Assembly (NCBI RefSeq): GCF_002954445.1
Contig: NZ_MQWA01000001.1
Span: forward strand, 303,935-365,986
Direction: 5' to 3'
DNA from: Rubritalea profundi
Lineage (GTDB): Bacteria > Verrucomicrobiota > Verrucomicrobiia > Verrucomicrobiales > Akkermansiaceae
Length of the DNA: 62,052 nt
This document shows positions 23,985 to 35,437 of this stretch, one piece after another. The position numbers were made by a program, and so were the translations under genes. The notes beneath the pieces are model-generated. The model was not told the DNA's origin. It saw nothing but the letters and a program-made list of their open reading frames with translations, and made no database searches. Position 1 is the first letter of the stretch, and the number at the start of each line of letters is the position of its first letter.

Positions 23985-26105
23985 TCACTTCCAGAGCAAT
24001 TTCGGATCGGTGACAGGGGCCTGACAAGTTTCGCCTTCGCAAAGGTAGCCCGTCGTCTTCTCACCCTTCGCTTTCAAACCTTTTTCAAAGTCATCCACCA
24101 GCCCCTTATTCCCCATCAGCGTGAGGTTTGGTCGGTATCCAGCGGCTATTTTAGCATAAAACCCAGCGTCTCCATTGGCCCCCACAGCCAGCACCAAGCG
24201 CTGCCTCTTCGAGTGGTATAAATCCAAAGCCTGAAGCATGCTTGTCAGCGAAGTCGGTGCAAGCATCATCAGCTCACCATGCGCCCTAAAAGTCCCCTCA
24301 GCAATCTTCTGGAAATCTTTTCTCCCAGTAATCTCAGAGAGTTTCAGAAACTCCATCACAGCAATCGAGCTCGCAGTGGGCATCGCTCCATCATAGCTCC
24401 CTTTCAAGCGCACAATCACATCATCCGCTACCGCACTTCCAAAAAATCCACCCTTTTTAGAATCGTGAAATAAAGCAATTGAAGCCTCAGCCAAATCGAC
24501 AGCAAATTCCAACAACTCAGGATCCAAGGTCATTTCGTAACAACGGCGACTCGCCTGCAACATAAGCAAATAGCTCTCAGCCTGTTCCGACGCGTCTAAG
24601 CCGTCAGCATGCCAGCGGTGCGCTAGTCGCTTACCGTCCCACATTTCCTTCTTCACAAAAGCCATAGCCTTGTTAGACGCAGCAGAATACTTCTTTTCAC
24701 CCAGCACTATGCCAGCTCGCTGTAACGCCCCGATCATCATCCCGTTCCAAGAGGCCAAAACCTTATCATCGGTGCTCGGACGAATACGGCTAGATCGCGC
24801 CACTTGCATTTTTTTAATCCCGCTCAGAACCAATGCTTCGCGCCCGGGTTTTTCACCTAGCCACTTTTCTCCCTTCACCAGAGAAAGTACATTTTGTGCC
24901 TTCAATGCCTCTGGGTCACTATGGTCATAAAAATTCCCCTCATCCGTGACTCCAAAATACGCACAGATCTCAGTGAATTCGTCAGGATTTAACAGCGACT
25001 TCAGCTCGCTAGTAGTCCAGCAGAAATACTTACCTTCCTTCCCCTCACTTTGTGCATCTTCAGCACAGTAAAACGCCCCACCTTCAGCACGCATAGCTCG
25101 TAGCACATACCCACATATCGAATCCGCGACATCTGCGTATTTCTGCTTTCTAGAAACCTGATACAGGTCCAGGTAAAAATCTAACAACTGAGCCTGATCG
25201 TAGAGCATCTTTTCAAAATGTGGCACCAACCACTTGCCGTCGACAGTGTACCTATGAAAGCCACCTCCCAGATGGTCATGGATACCACCCTTAGCCATTT
25301 CTCTGGCTGTTAGCTCAACGAAATCAAGCACCTTAGAATCACCACTACGCTTCCAAGAACGCAGCAGGAAACGAAGATGCGACGGCATAGGAAACTTCGG
25401 GCCCTTATCCCATCCCCCTTTTTGGGCATCGCCACTCTCCATCAACAACTGAGCCGCCATACCTAAAACCTCAGCATCTGGCACAGTCTTAGTCAGTTTA
25501 CCGGCTACAGAGCTATCCAGCATGTGCTGACGGAGCTCTTTGGCAGACGCCAGCACTTGCTCTTGTTTATTACCCCACGCATCCTTGAGCTGCAGCAGAG
25601 CATTCTTAAATCCAACACGATCACCACGGTCAGTTGGCGGAAAATAGGTCCCACCGAAAAAGGGCGTCAAATCCGGTGTCAGAAACATATTCAATGGCCA
25701 GCCACCAGTCTGACCCGTCATTGTGTGATATGCCGTCATATACACTTTATCCACATCTGGCCGTTCTTCTCGGTCCAGCTTGATCGCCACGAAGTGCGCA
25801 TTCAGAATTTTAGCGATCTCCTTATTCTCAAAACTCTCACGCTCCATCACATGACACCAATGACAAGTCGAGTAACCAATACTCAGTAAAATTGGCTTAT
25901 TTTCCTTCTTTGCTTTAGCGAATGCCTCCTCACCCCACGGGTACCAATCAACCGGATTCTTGGCATGCAGGCGCAAATACGGCGAAGCTTCCTTAGCCAA
26001 TCGATTCTCTTTCACCTGCCCAGCATCCGCGGCTGGATCGGCATCACAACTCACCGCCAAAAAAATCAGCGCAATAACCCCCAATAAATGTCGTACAGCC
26101 TTCAT
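23985..26105 (-). CDS. SSP411/YyaL-type thioredoxin-domain protein (DUF255), lipoprotein signal
   Basis: A 706-residue protein. The N-terminal thioredoxin-like DUF255 domain (about 35-195) contains [20 protein letters not shown], the WYPWGEEAF motif, the redox motif STCHWCHVM and [16 protein letters not shown]. The remainder is an (alpha/alpha)-barrel similar to six-hairpin glycosidase/epimerase folds, with [17 protein letters not shown] and [12 protein letters not shown]. The leader [20 protein letters not shown] has a lipobox (L-A-V-S-C), so it is probably membrane-anchored outside the cytoplasm, unusual for the family. Human SPATA20 is a homolog. Function is unknown; a thiol-redox role is inferred from CHWC. 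Single-gene unit on the minus strand. Confidence 0.88.
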
Positions 26106-26255: not shown

Positions 26256-29200
26256 ATGAACCGACTACTCACCCTTGCCTGCGGCACCTTATTTTTAGCA
26301 TCCTGCTCAGATAAAACCACTACTCAACCCAAGCAGCCCAGCACGCAAAAATCGAGTAGCGAAGTAGTTCAAAAAAAAGGAGACTGTGCTCCCCTCAAGA
26401 ATATCTTTCAACGAGCACATCCAGCCCATCCTCTCGGCCTCATGCTACCATTGCCACGGACCGGACTCTGGCACCCGCTACCCAGAGGACGAACCACTCA
26501 GGCTCGACCAAGAAGAAGGAGTCTTTAGCGCCAGAGAAAGCGGTAAACCCGTCATCATCAAGGGCGATCCAGACAATTAGTTTTTACTCCAACTGATGGA
26601 GAGCCAGGATGCGGATGTCGTCATGCCACCACACCCGAGCAAGAACCCACACGGAAAAATCATGGATCCAGCGGAAATTGCCATGGTCCGCCAGTGGATT
26701 AAAGAGGGTGCAGAATTTGAGGCGCATTGGGCCTACATCGCCCCGAAGAAAGCACCCCTACCGGCCATTCAATCTGAAGAATGGGCGCGTAACCCGATCG
26801 ACCACTTCATCGGGAAAAAACTCGATGAAGCGGGGCTCAAACCAAATGAAGAACAAGACAAATCGAGACTCCTTCGCCGTTTGAATTTTGACCTCACTGG
26901 GCTCCCTCCAACTGCCGAAGAGGCACAAAGCTTCCTCAATGACAAACGTGACTTCGAGTCCGTCTACGCTGAAAAAGTGGACCAACTACTCAAAACTGGC
27001 GCTTACGCTGAGCACTTCGCTCGACACTGGCTCGATGTTGCGCGCTACGCGGACACCCACGGTATTCACAACGACAATTATCGCTCGATCTGGCCCTATC
27101 GTGACTGGGTCATCAACGCGTTCAAAAGCAACATGCCCTTTGACCAATTCACCCGCGAACAAATTGCGGGCGACATGATGCCCAACGCCACCATGGACCA
27201 GAAGATCGCATCTGGATTCCACCGCTGCCTCCCCACCACTGGTGAAGGTGGTGCTATTGCTGAAGAATATGACGCTATTTACGCTCAGGACCGCGTCGAC
27301 ACCACCTCGGCAGCTTGGCTGGGACTCACCGCAGGCTGCGCGGCATGCCACGATCACAAGTTCGACGCGATCTCCACCAAAGAGAACTACCAACTCACAG
27401 CATTCTTCCGCAATACTACGATGAAAGCTCTGGACCGCAATAGCGCCACTCACCCGCCAAACCTTCTGATTCCCACCCCAGACGACCTAAACCGCTATAC
27501 CGTTATCGATAAAGAAATCAGCGAGGCTGACAAAGCCACCCAATCATATAAGAAGGAAAACGAGCCACAATTCCAGAGCTGGTTTAAATCCGACAAAACA
27601 ACGGATAACTCAAAAATTGCCAAGCAAGCTCGCCTCATCAAACTCCCACTCACAAACAAAACAAAAGGACTAGTCGACACCTTTGGCAAAAGCTACACCA
27701 GCAAATCGCCACTCGAATGGGTAAGCAGCTCCGGTGGCGAAGCCGTGCTATTCAACAAGCAAAACAACATCAACCTTGGCAACCAAGGTGACCTTGAGAA
27801 TAATGACAAGTTCAGCTTCGGTGCTTGGATCAAGACCCCTCATAACATTTCCGCTGGAGTCATTTCTAAAATGGATATTGGCGACTCTCACCGCGGATAC
27901 GACCTCTGGGTTGAAAACGGTAAGCTCGCAGTCCACCTGATCCACTCATTGCCGCAAAACTACATCAAAGTCACCACCAAACAAAAAGTGGCTGAGAATG
28001 AATGGACCCACGCATTCGTCACCTACAATGGCTCCAAAAAAGCCAGGGCGTGAAGATCTATATCAACGGCAAAGAACAAAAGCTAGAGATCAAGAGCAAC
28101 AAGCTCACTGAAACGATGAAGAACAAGGCCCCTCTATTGCTAGGGTCTCGCCACGATGGACAACACTTCACCAACGGCCAGCTTCACAGCTTCCAGCTTT
28201 TCAATAAAACCCTCACCACCGAAGAAATTGTTGCGATATCCATCAATGGTCGCATCAACAACCTTCGCGAGTCATCCAAACAGGATCCAAAGCTCGTCGA
28301 ACAGATCCGTAGCTACTACTTCACACACATCGACAAAGCCACCAAAAAGCTCAATGACAAATCCATTGCCCTTAAGAGCGAAAAAAAGCGATCGAAAAAC
28401 GTGGCACCTACACCCTAGTGATGCAAGAGAAAGCAGACCTGAAGCCCACTGCACACATCCTCATCCGCGGCCAATACGCGGTGAAAGATAAAGAAGTACT
28501 GAGCCCTGATGTACCCGCCTCACTTCCTCCAATGACCGCTGAAATGCCAAGAAATCGTCTTGGCCTAGGCATGTGGCTTTCCGAACCAAGTAACCCACTT
28601 CCCGCTCGTGTCACAGTCAACCGCTATTGGTACTACCTCTTCGGTAATGGCATCGTGGAATCCACCAATGACTTCGGCGTCATGGGAGCCCGCCCTAGCC
28701 ACCCGAAACTACTCGACTGGTTGGCTAGCGATTTTGTTGAAAATGGATGGGACTTCCACCTCCTCCTCAAAACGATCGTCACCTCATCCACCTATCGTCA
28801 GTCTGCCACCTTCACGGATTAGAAACTGGAGCAGGACCCGCTCAACAAGCTTCTCTCTCGCGGCCCGCGCTACCGTCTCGCGGCAGAACAAATCCTCGAT
28901 CTGGCACTCAGTTCGTCAGGACTCCTCAGCAAGGATATGGGTGGCCCCTCGGTCAAACCGTACCAACCAATCAACGTCTGGGAATCCGTTGCCATGAAAG
29001 GCTCCAACACTAGACACTACAAGCCAGACTCAGGATCCAAGCTCTACCGTCGCTCGCTCTACACCTTCTGGAAGAGAACGGCCCCCCACCCATCGATGGA
29101 GATCCTCAACGCCCCATCACGGGAAGTAAGCTGTGTAAGGCGCGAGCAAACAAACACACCACTGCAGGCATTTGTGGTCATGAATGACCCACAGTTTGTC

Positions 29201-29498
29201 GAAAGCTCACGCCAGCTCGCTGCCCACGCCCTCCTCAACTGCAAAGAAAAACCCACAATCCTCCAGTTCATCGCAGCTCGCCTACTCAACCGTGAACTCA
29301 CCACCAGAGAGATAGAGATTGTGAATCAAACTCTCGACTTCAGCTACGCCAAGTTCAAAGCAGCCCCCCGACAAAGCCACAGCGCTCATCTCAGTCGGCG
29401 AATCCAAAGCACCAGCAGAACTAGACCCAGCTCAACTTGCGGCCTGGACACTCATCGCCAACCAAATCCTCAATATGGATGAAACGCTTAACAAATAA
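26256..29498 (+). pseudogene. Decayed copy 1 of the PSCyt1-DUF1549-LamG-DUF1553 lipoprotein
   Basis: This is a full-length relative of the gene at 30026-33270 with many lesions. An extra A in the A-run at about 26372-26379 shifts the frame just before the CYHCH heme motif. TAG at 26578 replaces a Ser codon. One G is missing at about 28050 (GGG against GGGG) and one base is missing in an A-run near 28386. TAG at 28820 replaces a Glu codon, and an extra C occurs in CCCCCC near 29370. Fragments in between are still very similar to copy 2 (for example YHCHGPDSGTR, HWLDVARYADTHGIH, EILNAPSREVSCVRR). Similarity stops right after the stop codon, and no DUF1501 partner follows, so the duplication covered one gene only. 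Confidence 0.93.
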
Positions 29499-30025
29499 TC
29501 GATTGCCCCACCCTACTACCTCCAAAAAACAATAACAAGAGACATCGGACAAATGACGTCTTCAAATGGAGTACGGTTCAAAGCCGAGGTATAAACAGCG
29601 CGGCCCCAGAGGTCTGCCCCTTAGTGCACTTCCGGCTCTCATCAAAAATCTCTGCGGCTCTGCGGCTCTGCGCAAGGCTTTGAATTCATTTCTCGCGCAG
29701 AGGCGCAGAGGCGCAGAGGCGCAGAGCAAAACTTGATGATTCGGATTTAGGACTTCGTCATTCTTTGGGTCTTTGGCTAATTCGCCATTTCCGCCCTCTC
29801 GACTTCAAGACTCCGGCGCCACGCCCACGATGAACTAAATAAATAAACGAATAAACAAACAGACTAATAGCCTCAATAAGCCTAACTCCTAGAGCCACAT
29901 GTTTTTTTAAAAAAAATCACCCTGAAAGGAACATCTCAATTTCACAGCTAGGCACAAAAATAATGATAGAATAAACAGCTAAAGCCTGTAGTCTAAGTCA
30001 TAAACTTCGAATGTTGTCACCTTTT
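29499..30025. other. Intergenic region between the tandem copies, with a GCGCAGAG hairpin repeat
   Basis: No gene is supported in these 527 bases. The main feature is a hairpin: CTCTGCGG-type repeats at 29650-29673 face four exact tandem copies of GCGCAGAG at 29695-29726, separated by about 21 bases. The 3' part (29830-29990) is AT-rich, with AAATAAATAAACG-type runs, and probably holds the promoter of copy 2. Confidence 0.6.
29650..29726. repeat. Hairpin of inverted CTCTGCGG/GCGCAGAG tandem repeats
   Basis: The right arm is an exact four-fold tandem of the octamer GCGCAGAG; the left arm is CTCTGCGGCTCTGCGG and so on (three imperfect units). Together they can form a very stable cruciform or RNA hairpin. 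Sequences of this kind are scattered in intergenic DNA of many environmental bacteria. It sits downstream of the dead gene copy. Confidence 0.8.
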
Positions 30026-33000
30026 ATGAAGAACCGACTACTCACCCTTGCCTGTGGCACCTTGTTTTTAGCATCCTGCTCAGATAAGCCCACGACCCAT
30101 ACCAAGGACACCAGCGCACAAAAACCGAGTAGCGAAGTAGCGCAAAAAAAGGTGACTGAGCTCCCCTCAAGGATATCATTCAACGAGCACATTCAGCCCA
30201 TCCTCTCGGCTTCATGCTACCATTGTCACGGACCAGACTCTGGCACCCGCTTCCCCGAGGACGAACCACTCCGACTAGATCAAGAAAAAGGAGTCTTCAG
30301 CGTCAGAGAAAGCGGTAAACCTGTCATTATCAAGGGTGATCCGGACAACTCATTTTTACTCCAACTGATGGAGAGCCCGGATCCGGACGTTGTCATGCCG
30401 CCACACCCGAGCAAGAGCCCACATGGCAAAATCATGGACCCATCGGAAATTGCGATGGTCCGCCAGTGGATTAAAGAAGGTGCAGAATTTGAGGCGCACT
30501 GGGCCTACATCGCCCCAGAAAAAGAACCCCTGCCGGCGATTCAATCTAAAGACTGGGCGCGCACCCCAATTGACCACTTCATCGCTAGCAAGTTTGAAGA
30601 AGCTGGACTCAAGCCAAATGGTGATCAAGATAAAGCCCGCCTTCTGCGTCGCCTGAACTTTGACCTCACAGGCCTCCCGCCCACCGCTGAAGAGGCAAAA
30701 AGCTTCCTCAATGACAAACGTGACTCCGAGACCGTCTACCAAGAAAAAGTAGATCAACTCCTCAAAACTGACGCTTACGCCGAGCACTTCTCTCGACACT
30801 GGCTCGATGTGGCACGCTACGCGGATACCCACGGCATTCACATCGATAATTACCGCTCAATCTGGCCCTACCGTGACTGGGTAATCAACGCGTTCAAAAG
30901 CAACATGCCTTTTGACCAATTCACCCGCGAACAAATTGCGGGCGACATGATGCCCAATGCCACCATCGAGCAAAAAATCGCCTCCGGTTTCCACCGCTGT
31001 CTCCCCACCACTGGTGAAGGTGGAGCCATCGCTGAAGAATATGACGTCATTTACGCTCAGGATCGAGTCGACACTACCTCGTCAGCTTGGCTAGGTCTCA
31101 CCGCCGGCTGTGCAGCCTGCCACGACCACAAGTTCGACGCTATCTCCACCAAAGAGAACTACCAGCTCACGGCATTCTTCCGCAACACCACAATGACAGC
31201 GCTAGACCGAAATAGCGCCACTCACCCGCCAAACATCCTCATCTCAACCGACGAAGACAGGACGCGTTACGAGAACATCGACAAAGACATCAAGACAGCT
31301 GAAGAAGCATACAAAAAATATAAATCTGAGCACGAAACTCAGTTTCAGACTTGGCTCAAATCTGAGAAAAAAACTGACAACTCCGATGTCGCGAAAGATG
31401 CTTTAGTCATGAAGCTCCAGCTCACGAGCAAATCAAAGGGACTAGTCGACACTTCAGGGAAGACATACAAGAGCAAAAAACCTCTCGAGTGGGTCAGCAG
31501 TCCAGACGGTGAGGCCGTACTCTTCAACGCTCAAAACAACATCAACCTCGGAAATGTCGGTGACTTCGAAAATGACGACCATTTCAGCTTCGGTGCCTGG
31601 ATAAAAAACCCAGGAAAAAACAGGGCCGGTATCATCTCAAAAATGGACATCGAGAACTCATACCGCGGCTATGATATTTATGCCGAAAATGGTAAAATTG
31701 CTGTCCACTTGATCCACGCGTTTCCACAGAACCATGTTAAAGTAACCACCAAAAAAGCACTCCCTGACAATGAATGGAACCACGTCTCATCACCTACAGA
31801 GGATCGAAGAAAGTCTGGGGCGTGAAAATCTACATCAACGGCGAAAAACAGGAAGTCACTAAAAATAGCAATAAACTCACTAAAACAATCAAAACAAAAG
31901 CACCCTTCTTGTTGGGATCTAGACATGAGGGACAATACTTCACCAATGGCCAACTCCACAGTTTTCAGCTATTCAATAGAGCACTTACAGAAGAAGAGGT
32001 TATCGCAACTTCAATCAATGGTCGCATCAACAAGCTCAAGAAATCTGCAAAACATTCCCCCAAGCTGGTCGATCAAGCCCGTAACTACTACTTCATTTAC
32101 GAAGACAAGGCAGCCAATGACCTCAATGACAAATTGGTTGCTATTAAAAACGAAAAATCAGCGATCGAAAAACGTGGTACTTTCACTCTGGTGATGCAAG
32201 AGAAAGCTGACACTAAGCCCACAGCTCACATCCTCATCCGCGGCCAATACGCCGTGAAGGATAAAGAAGTTCTGAGCCCCGGAGTTCCCGCCTCACTTCC
32301 ACCAATGACGGATGAAATGCCAAGAAACCGACTTGGCCTAGGCATGTGGCTTACAGCTCCAGAGAACCCACTGCCAGCCCGGGTCACAGTCAACCGCTAT
32401 TGGTACTACCTCTTCGGTAATGGCATCGTGGAATCCACTAATGACTTCGGCGTCATGGGCGCCCGTCCAAGCCACCCGAAGCTACTCGACTGGCTGGCTA
32501 CCGACTTTGTTGAAAATGGATGGGACTTCCACCACCTCCTCAAAACAATCGTCAGCTCATCTACCTATCGCCAATCGGCCACATTCACAGATGAAAAACT
32601 GGAAAGAGACCCACTCAACAAGCTTCTATCCCGAGGCCCACGCTACCGTCTCGATGCTGAACAAATCCGAGATCTAGCACTCAGTGCGTCAGAATTACTT
32701 AATACCAAAATAGGTGGGCCATCAGTCAAACCGTATCAGCCGACTAACATCTGGGAGTCAGTCGCCATGGCTCAGTCCAATACCAAAAACTACAAACAAG
32801 ACACTGGCGAAAAACTCTACCGTCGTTCACTCTACACTTTCTGGAAGAGAACAGCCCCCCACCCATCGATGGAGATTCTCAATGCTCCATCACGGGAAGT
32901 AAGCTGTGTAAGGCGCGATCTAACAAACACACCACTCCAGGCCTTTGTGGTGATGAATGACCCACAATTTGTAGAAAGCTCACGCCAACTCGCGGCAAAC

Positions 33001-33270
33001 GCTCTGCTCAACAGCAAGGAGAACCCCGCAATCCTGCAGTTCATCACGGCTCGCCTACTGAACCGTGAACTCAACACCACAGAGATAGAGATTGTGAATC
33101 AAACTCTCGACTTCAGCTACGCCAAGTTCAAAGCAGCTCCAGATAAAGCCAAAGCACTCATCTCAGTTGGTGAATCTAAAGCACCAGCAGAACTAGACCC
33201 CGCTCAACTTGCGGCCTGGACACTCATCGCCAACCAAATCCTCAACATGGATGAAACTCTTAACAAATAA
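30026..33270 (+). CDS. PSCyt1-DUF1549-LamG-DUF1553 heme-c lipoprotein, copy 2 (one apparent single-base deletion)
   Basis: About 1081 residues when joined. MKNRLLTLACGTLFLASC is a lipoprotein leader (lipobox LASC). A PSCyt1 domain has heme-c motif CYHCH (residues 64-68). DUF1549 follows (LLRRLNFDLTGLPPTAEE, HWLDVARYADTHGIH) with a second CxxCH, CAACH, at about 362-366. A LamG/concanavalin-like domain comes next (FSFGAWIKNPGKNRAGIISK) and the C-terminal part is DUF1553 (NRLGLGMWL, EILNAPSREVSCVRR). The frame breaks near 31790: NEWNHV continues as ITYRGSKKVWGVKIYING in the next frame, needing one extra T as in copy 1 (AFVTY). With the DUF1501 partner nine bases downstream it forms the usual Planctomycetes/Verrucomicrobia pair, often near polysaccharide-degradation genes. 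Copy 1 lies directly upstream. Confidence 0.88.
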
Positions 33271-34844: not shown

Positions 34845-35372
34845 ATGAAGAAACCCATACTCTATGGCTTCATTTCCGCCGTGGCCATTATATCGGGCTT
34901 AGCACAAGCGGAAGACGCCAAGAAACCCGCCACCGAGCAAGCTGCAGTCGACGTAGCCAAGACTTTAGAAGGCAATCTCCAGATCCTTGACGGCGATAAA
35001 TACGCGCCAGCTAAGGTCGACCCAGCAGTCAGCCACTACGTGGTCTATTACACCGCGAGTTGGTGACCACCCTGCCGCGCCTCGGTTTCACAGTTAGTGA
35101 AATCTTATAACGACAAAATCGGCCCTCTCAAAAATGTAGAGCTCGTAATGATGAGCTACGACAAATCCAGCGATGATGCTCTAGCATGGGCCAAGGAAGA
35201 GTCCTTCCCATGGCCTACTGTTCTTGGTGAAGACAAAGAAAAAGTCCACTTCGGCAGCGTAGAGGTGCTCAGTATTCCCACTTATATTCTTTTCGATAAA
35301 GACGGAAAAGTCGTCACCAAAGGCAAGGAAAAAATATTTGCCGAAATAGCTAAGATGAAAGAGACCAACTAA
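34845..35372 (+). CDS. Thioredoxin/nucleoredoxin-like periplasmic selenoprotein candidate (in-frame TGA in a UPPC motif)
   Basis: One open frame of 175 codons interrupted only by TGA at 35064-35066 (codon 74). The context is YYTASW-TGA-PPCRASVSQL, so the TGA sits exactly where thioredoxin-fold proteins have the first Cys of WCxxC; the resolving Cys77 is intact. The frame continues with a normal fold: VELVMMSYDKSSDDALAWAK, FPWPTVLGED and the cis-Pro loop LSIPTYILFDKDGKV (Pro145). A signal peptide (MKKPILYGFISAVAIISGLA, cleavage about residue 22) predicts export. A stem-loop at 35084-35104, with a G at the second loop position 27 nt after the TGA, fits bacterial SECIS rules. I infer Sec insertion (UxxC redox centre), most like tryparedoxin/nucleoredoxin domains. 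A nonsense mutation is the alternative. Transcribed alone, with its own terminator. Confidence 0.8.
35084..35104 (+). promoter_or_regulatory. Bacterial SECIS-like stem-loop inside the coding region
   Basis: GGTTTCAC and GTGAAATC pair as an 8-bp stem (one G-U pair) around the five-base loop AGTTA. The stem begins 18 bases after the TGA, and the loop G (35093) is 27 bases after it. Bacterial SECIS elements lie directly downstream of the UGA within the ORF, with a small apical loop having G at position one or two, which SelB recognises. Size, distance and loop fit. Confidence 0.7.
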
Positions 35373-35393: not shown

Positions 35394-35437
35394 AAAACCC
35401 TTATCTAGCAGCCACTAGGTAGGGGTTTTCCTTTTTT
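35394..35437. terminator. Intrinsic terminator after the selenoprotein gene, possibly bidirectional
   Basis: AAAACCCTTATCTAG pairs with CTAGGTAGGGGTTTT around a short loop, with one mismatch/bulge, and is followed on the plus strand by CCTTTTTT. It lies 22 bases after the stop at 35372 and just past the 3' end of the convergent aqpZ, so it may serve both. Confidence 0.8.

Follow-up and report, generated by a model that had tools for sequence, protein, structure and literature searches.

The locus considered here raises the question of whether a single TGA triplet within an otherwise open thioredoxin-like gene of Rubritalea profundi acts as a stop codon or is read as selenocysteine (Sec). The gene is located on the forward strand at positions 34845–35372 of the window, by which we mean the whole analysed stretch of 62,052 nucleotides. 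Translation of 34845–35369 with TGA read as U gives a protein of 175 residues, followed by a TAA stop at 35370–35372. The sole internal stop of this frame is the TGA at 35064–35066 (+), codon 74, which is positioned between Trp73 and Pro75 in the context ASW-U-PPC-RA and would provide the first residue of a U-P-P-C centre. The resolving cysteine of this centre, Cys77, is encoded at 35073–35075 (+), and the cis-proline of the thioredoxin fold, Pro145 in the segment SIPTY, at 35277–35279 (+). Retranslation thus bears out the original prediction of a 175-codon frame broken by nothing but this TGA, with the TGA between W and PPC of a thioredoxin-like site and with coding intact up to the cis-proline and the C-terminus. 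Our best explanation is a small exported thioredoxin-fold selenoprotein of the tryparedoxin/TlpA-like kind with SECIS-driven insertion of Sec, a reading to which we assign a probability of roughly nine in ten. Residues Met1 to Ala22 (MKKPILYGFISAVAIISGLAQA; 34845–34910, +), which end in AQA, form a probable Sec-pathway signal peptide as judged from their sequence, and lipobox-like N-termini, e.g. LTTLFASMAMVSCGG, are present in several homologs. A product ending at the TGA, with a restart at GTG 35097, was discarded by reasoning, as it would cut the thioredoxin core at the active site. Behind the gene, a pattern scan depicts a terminator-like hairpin with a T run at 35394–35429 (+); by the same scan the region holds 12 such hairpins compared with 8.7 in shuffled sequences. 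The Rfam scan gave just two matches, both below the gathering score and both on the stretch around this terminator, and no tRNA genes were found within the window.

Downstream of the TGA, and separated from it by a gap of 17 bases, lies a predicted bacterial SECIS hairpin at 35084–35104 (+), its stem starting 18 positions past the last TGA base. The 5′ arm GGTTTCAC (35084–35091) and the 3′ arm GTGAAATC (35097–35104) enclose the loop AGTTA (35092–35096). Written as RNA (GGUUUCAC-AGUUA-GUGAAAUC), the element comprises eight contiguous pairs, including one G-U pair, and has a G at loop position 2, in agreement with its first description in each of these details. In a 52-nt stretch with a minimum free energy (MFE) of −8.6 kcal/mol the hairpin is both the MFE and the centroid structure. 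The bSECIS model, as quoted in PMC13188914, employs a loop of 3–9 nt, a stem of 4–16 bp, a G within the first two loop positions, a UGA-to-loop distance of 16–37 nt and an MFE of at most −7.5 kcal/mol. The window hairpin fits this model in shape and spacing, with a 5-nt loop, 8 bp, the G in second position followed by U, and a distance of 25 nt. With regard to the energy limit, −8.6 kcal/mol is obtained with flanks (52 nt) versus −7.2 kcal/mol for the bare 21-nt hairpin, and the bare hairpin is weaker still in some homologs. Taken singly, its stability is close to chance (z = −0.61), since folds at least as good are obtained with 47 of 200 dinucleotide-shuffled versions of the 52 nt. The RNA fold proposed as a check therefore returned the expected hairpin as MFE and centroid structure, but one no more stable than shuffles, and the argument that a chance TGA together with a fitting hairpin is unlikely turns out weaker than claimed. 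Because the lone hairpin matches shuffles, its significance derives from the related genes, and it is the comparison with relatives that bears the case.

A tblastn search with the window protein against 58 genomes, its own included, yielded 81 match rows in 45 genomes. One TGA is found in 39 of these rows and no stop in the remaining 42; TAG does not occur in any of them, and a TAA is additionally present in one of the 39. When read frame by frame, all 39 TGA rows carry U in the common motif S/T-W/T-U-x-x-C within the aligned stretch. They are spread over 27 of the 58 genomes, at genus, family and order levels, and correspond to 38 distinct sequences, L040 being equal to L039 over the compared stretch. 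Fifteen of the 42 stop-free rows were read and comprise 12 CxxC homologs and three frames with neither U-x-x-C nor C-x-x-C; the homologous frames excluded for lacking either motif are L066, L071 and the second frame of L073. The active site of L071 (G003:C45) reads S-A-K-C, with serine in place of Sec or cysteine. Alignment A2 contains 42 of the 50 proteins (31 of 38 with U, 11 of 12 with C), the others having been omitted mostly for long or cut N-terminal frames. In A2 the 11 Cys homologs place their cysteine in the same column as Sec, Cys77 is invariant and Pro145 nearly so. Both kinds of homolog to be looked for, those with a conserved TGA and those with cysteine at this codon, are thus found, while the scattered stops that would have spoken for a decaying gene are not seen among the 81 rows. 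Many Sec homologs, among them L051, L054, L032 and the paralog in the own genome, possess an extension like R-T-W-T-S-x-D-G-x-K-T-F-E-G within their N-terminal 60–90 residues. It received no Pfam name in the three carriers that were scanned (L051, L032 and L109); we take it to resemble SHD1-like domains.

The hairpin was compared across the family in a gap-free alignment anchored at the TGA, in which the loop bases occupy +28 to +32, counted from the T. The loop reads AGTTN in 36 of the 38 distinct Sec genes (21 AGTTA, 14 AGTTG and 1 AGTTT), the other two showing GGTTG and AGGTG. The pattern NGTTN is present in 37 of 38 Sec genes versus none of the 12 Cys homologs examined, and a similar partition is seen in the stem, with an unbroken run of at least 3 pairs in 37 of 38 Sec genes versus 1 of 12 Cys genes, and of at least 6 pairs in 24 of 38 versus 1 of 12. 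Compensatory changes are observed at all eight stem pairs and fill 32 cells, compared with a mean of 8.5 cells after shuffling; not one of 500 shuffles scores as high on any of five covariation measures. As a control, the pairing partner was slid by 1–3 columns, upon which all five measures fall. The two outer stem pairs are formed in just 14 and 13 of the 38 sequences, and a search by energy only favoured a different hairpin in some homologs (e.g. L022, L028, L054, L039 and L060). Covariation within these aligned genes confirms the predicted SECIS element.

Insertion of Sec further calls for a dedicated machinery, and the original prediction had named selA, selB, selC (tRNA-Sec) and selD as the genes to be searched. 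In the own genome (G000; 4.17 Mb in 4 contigs) the tRNA-Sec model scores 49.6 bits versus a gathering score of 47, and ARAGORN calls tRNA-SeC with the anticodon TCA (UCA). The Rfam tRNA-Sec model is unspecific, as it exceeds its cut-off in 38 of the 58 genomes and in 5 of 14 controls, including genomes without selA or selB over cut-off, e.g. G042 and G049 (50.5 bits). Since the model score alone is unspecific, the identity of this tRNA rests on its UCA anticodon; the seven next-best matches of the model in G000 are tRNA-Ser, -Leu and -Cys according to ARAGORN. The selA gene is found at 496 bits, over the cut-off of a family that passes in 1 of 14 controls. The selD gene (376.5 bits, over cut-off) harbors an internal TGA itself. 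This TGA (L018:1531) is part of C-G-G-U-A-S, and the hairpin predicted for it carries the loop GGTCT at +35, unlike the AGTTR of the thioredoxin-like genes. For selB, 267.7 bits are reached with a cut-off of 242. Its coding sequence is distributed over two overlapping frames (L009 1495–2679 and 2472–3401; G000:C1 about 1020800–1022700), whereas most of the 30 genomes that exceed the cut-off have selB as a single open frame of at least 636 codons. If real, this frame break would impair Sec decoding; we suspect assembly indels as the likelier cause because two conserved genes of the window are broken as well. The search for the machinery is accordingly positive for tRNA-Sec, selA and selD, and for selB with the reservation that the gene passes its cut-off but is frame-broken in the assembly.

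Across the genomes, UxxC genes of the family occur in 27 of 58, and selA or selB is over cut-off in all 27 of these, whereas among the 31 genomes without UxxC genes selA or selB is present in 6 and neither in 25 (p = 4.7e-11, a value that overstates independence, the genomes being related). The 27 UxxC genomes include 25 with selA, 24 with selB and 22 with both; the five that do not have both, G001, G003, G007, G008 and G039, have completeness values of 58, 82, 93, 83 and 83%, respectively. The presence of tRNA-Sec, selA and selD also argues against a SECIS-independent general recoding, in which a suppressor or a changed genetic code would let TGA be read as Cys or Trp. Cysteine would be the homologous residue, as found in the Cys forms of the family. 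Nevertheless TGA terminates 5 of the 38 main open reading frames selected by us in the window, it occurs at a single codon of the gene, and it is accompanied by the hairpin in relatives, so that such recoding is hardly conceivable.

The surroundings of the gene were inspected as well. The original prediction described a preceding heme-c/DUF1501 gene pair, of which DUF1501 is indeed the upstream neighbour, while the "heme-c" part consists of PSCyt1-PSCyt2 and PSD1 pieces of apparently one frame-split gene. This PSCyt1-PSCyt2-LamG-PSD1 gene (30011–33270) is seemingly divided between two frames that overlap, with profile positions 4–84 of the LamG match in the first frame and 86–150 in the second. 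A second PSCyt2/LamG/PSD1 gene at 26596–29482 shows a frame change and an in-frame TAG at 28820–28822 and is either a pseudogene or affected by assembly errors. A further thioredoxin-fold protein of the window is the large Thioredox_DsbH (DUF255) protein encoded at 23985–26105 (−). Simple clustering of open reading frames at 77 loci of the family, many of which extend 1.5 kb to each side, revealed no widely recurring partner gene. The commonest neighbour, read as alpha/beta-hydrolase-like, is found in 14 of the 77 loci, and the 12 listed of these 14 belong to Roseibacillus or Akkermansiaceae. Apart from the window's own locus, DUF1501 is near the family gene in three loci (L093, L139 and L070).

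An assembly that seems to hold indels invites the suspicion that the TGA is a sequencing error for TGC or TGT. A substitution error, however, would not turn up in 27 genomes alongside a SECIS, and cultured strains, e.g. Rubritalea marina DSM 17716, show TGA in the motif of family members; we consider an error extremely improbable. The broken frames of the two conserved PSCyt2/PSD1 genes of the window, one of them with the TAG at 28820–28822, and of selB could in the same way suggest that the thioredoxin-like gene is a pseudogene, its TGA being a plain nonsense mutation in a CxxC protein. This explanation is rejected because the TGA is conserved, with 39 rows over 27 of the 58 genomes; furthermore, the hairpin covaries, the frame is undisturbed past the TGA and its product is modelled with high confidence (see below), and the relatives are under purifying selection downstream. 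In the 40 listed of 64 close ungapped pairs of pattern-found loci, which exclude the window gene as it has no close relative, pN/pS 3′ of the SECIS amounts to 0.05–0.35. We therefore regard a nonsense mutation as very improbable. Insertion of Sec, on the other hand, is supported by the TGA motif kept in 39 of 81 rows, by the covarying SECIS and by the presence of tRNA-Sec, selA and selD, and for this gene family the sequence comparisons make it highly probable.

A tree built from 50 proteins explains the distribution of the U and C labels with 2 changes, compared with 10.9 when the labels are shuffled. Inside the Sec clade, the Cys homolog L041, from a genome (G051) with selA, adjoins L048. 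At the place of the SECIS it retains a 6-pair stem, while the loop has changed to ATCTG. L041 thus probably represents a change from Sec to Cys with a fossil SECIS.

The extent of the family was explored with model and pattern scans. In the own genome, a covariance model built on UGA and hairpin picks out the window gene (E = 5e-12) and the paralog C1:149313 (E = 9e-13), both of which belonged to its training set, and the next match has an E-value of 0.07. An exact DNA pattern scanned over the genome contigs gives 78 matches in 77 stretches. Of these matches, 76 are in frame within an open reading frame that fits the family profile; the sample is not independent, in that 29 of the 78 duplicate members of the set of 38 genes, most of which went into the profile. 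Judged by their record titles, the loci are verrucomicrobial in 73 of 77 cases, the remainder being L093, L097, L107 and L149. L107 and L149 do not match the family profile, look like chance pattern matches and were not retained as members. L093, from a planctomycetote, shows a weak family match (E = 2.3e-5); here the TGA and SECIS pattern (L093:84–122) lies in a weakly similar open reading frame with PSCyt2, PSD1 and DUF1501 homologs at most 5 kb away. Strains with the pattern include Rubritalea marina DSM 17716, Roseibacillus persicicus, Roseibacillus ishigakijimensis and Persicirhabdus sediminis. A scan of the genome contigs with six protein patterns, using the protein with C for U, retrieved no relatives; one of the six required C at the Sec position, and the other five were, we think, too gene-specific to find relatives.

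As the SECIS element is part of the coding sequence, its loop also specifies amino acids, and these differ between Sec and Cys proteins. Of the 38 Sec genes, 36 encode glutamine by the first codon of the loop, in every case as CAG, and 36 have TTA or TTG as the following codon. At the glutamine position K (6), S (2) and T, D, H or A (1 each) but never Gln are found in the 12 Cys homologs, 11 of which use CTN for the leucine. The tetrapeptide PQLV is found in 28 of 38 Sec genes, the window gene having SQLV. Given the prevalence of the CAG and TTR codons among the Sec genes (36 of 38 for each) and the absence of Gln from the Cys forms, the helix residues Q-L-V behind the active site are apparently dictated by the RNA element. 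We tentatively extend this, at somewhat less than even odds, to the proposal that the Verrucomicrobiales employ a stereotyped SECIS subclass for an expanded, uncurated family of tryparedoxin-like exported selenoproteins whose residues in the helix adjacent to the active site are fixed by RNA recognition. The subclass would be defined by an unbulged stem, an AGUUR pentaloop and a fixed spacing of 25 nt, and the same SelB would also have to handle the differing GGUCU loop predicted on selD. Near-identical SECIS elements over divergent proteins, together with Cys homologs as controls, constitute a natural system for the constraint that an RNA within a coding sequence imposes on the protein and for the loop requirements of SelB.

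With U treated as C, the window protein matches the Pfam families Redoxin (1.3e-10), Thioredoxin_8 (3.5e-10), AhpC-TSA (1.2e-9) and, more weakly, Thioredoxin (1.2e-5). It passes the curated cut-off of Thioredoxin_8 with 40.5 versus 27 bits, and the same family scores best in four other members that were scanned (L051, L027, L109 and L032). No NCBIfam family is over its cut-off for the window protein or the four homologs scanned; the window protein scores 45.6 of 210 bits for StoA, the best named family, 26.7 of 170 for ResA and 27.6 of 123 for DsbE, thus staying outside all three. The AlphaFold2 model calculated from A2 has a mean pLDDT of 89, with block means of 95–98 over residues 41–170, and depicts a thioredoxin fold. 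The nearest solved structures in a profile search are the thioredoxins 4fyu (Wuchereria) and 2lus, followed by tryparedoxins. In Foldseek tryparedoxins lead (E = 7e-9 to tryparedoxin II; sequence identities of 27% for 1o6j and 34% for 1qk8), with 4grf, a Bacteroides thioredoxin domain, and ResA among the first 20. The modelled fold of the window protein is tryparedoxin-like.

According to the mechanism we propose, SelB and Sec-tRNA would bind the AGUUA-loop hairpin 25 nt past the UGA, and Sec would be inserted as the attacking residue of the U-P-P-C centre, as comparative genomics supports. Once mature, the protein would presumably serve as a rapid extracytoplasmic thiol-disulfide oxidoreductase, most probably working as a reductase. 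Sec74 would attack the substrate disulfide and Cys77 would resolve the intermediate, with a DsbD/CcdA-type membrane protein as the putative electron donor. Two DsbD_TM proteins are encoded, one by an open frame of 721 codons and the other by one of 252, and could supply electrons. We slightly favour this role of a reductase coupled to DsbD. Alternatively, Sec may be inserted into an enzyme of peroxidase-like or isomerase-like function, such as a peroxide reducer related to AhpC/TSA, in place of a reductase relay. The nearly equal scores of Redoxin, AhpC-TSA and Thioredoxin_8 for the window protein are compatible with such an enzyme, but the Sec position in W-[CU]-x-x-C is that of thioredoxins and tryparedoxins as opposed to the TxxU tabulated for peroxiredoxins, and tryparedoxins, ResA and StoA are among the solved structures closest in profile and fold. 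A peroxidase or isomerase is hence rather unlikely, and a thiol-disulfide reductase is preferred.

As for published selenoproteins, the tables of PMC9312934 and PMC13188914 contain UxxC families with PF00578 and PF08534, as well as a thiol-disulfide isomerase-like UxxC family from the Sargasso Sea assigned to pfam13905 (PMC9312934) or cd02966 (PMC13188914). Selenoprotein genes and Sec machinery are described for Planctomycetes from Porphyra in PMC4807772. The string "Verrucomicrobi-" is absent from the main texts of PMC9312934, PMC13188914, PMC2398784, PMC1088965 and PMC12013277, and among the open main texts on selenocysteine in Rubritalea or selenoproteins in Akkermansiaceae none of the titles or abstract openings listed indicates this family. 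Where annotation takes TGA for a stop, genes of this sort will be cut short or missed. Because the pattern scan finds them in dozens of verrucomicrobial assemblies, including cultured strains, existing records may well understate selenium use by these bacteria. The cultured Rubritalea marina holds candidates for exported selenoenzymes of this family, on which the prediction can be tested.

Tryparedoxins of trypanosomatids have a WCPPC centre with cysteine and work with trypanothione. They head the fold matches of the window protein and make up many of its best profile matches; the window protein differs from them by Sec in place of the first cysteine and by its predicted export. ResA, StoA and DsbE are exported TlpA-like extracytoplasmic reductases consisting of a thioredoxin domain with CxxC. 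Although StoA is its best named NCBIfam match, the window protein remains far under the cut-offs of these families and has Sec replacing Cys. The Sargasso Sea thiol-disulfide isomerase-like selenoprotein, compared here by its table description, likewise has a Thioredoxin_8/TlpA-type domain with Sec as first residue of UxxC. The Prx-like thiol:disulfide oxidoreductases (PF00578, UxxC/UxxU) and Redoxin UxxC selenoproteins (PF08534), as tabulated, share the broad Pfam matches and the UxxC centre, whereas four other members of the present family score best with Thioredoxin_8 and the relatives of solved structure are for the most part tryparedoxins. Thioredoxin-like selenoproteins with UxxC are thus already known and the window protein joins that kind; the rigid SECIS of the Verrucomicrobiales clade and the apparently RNA-dictated Q-L-V segment look like the less documented points.
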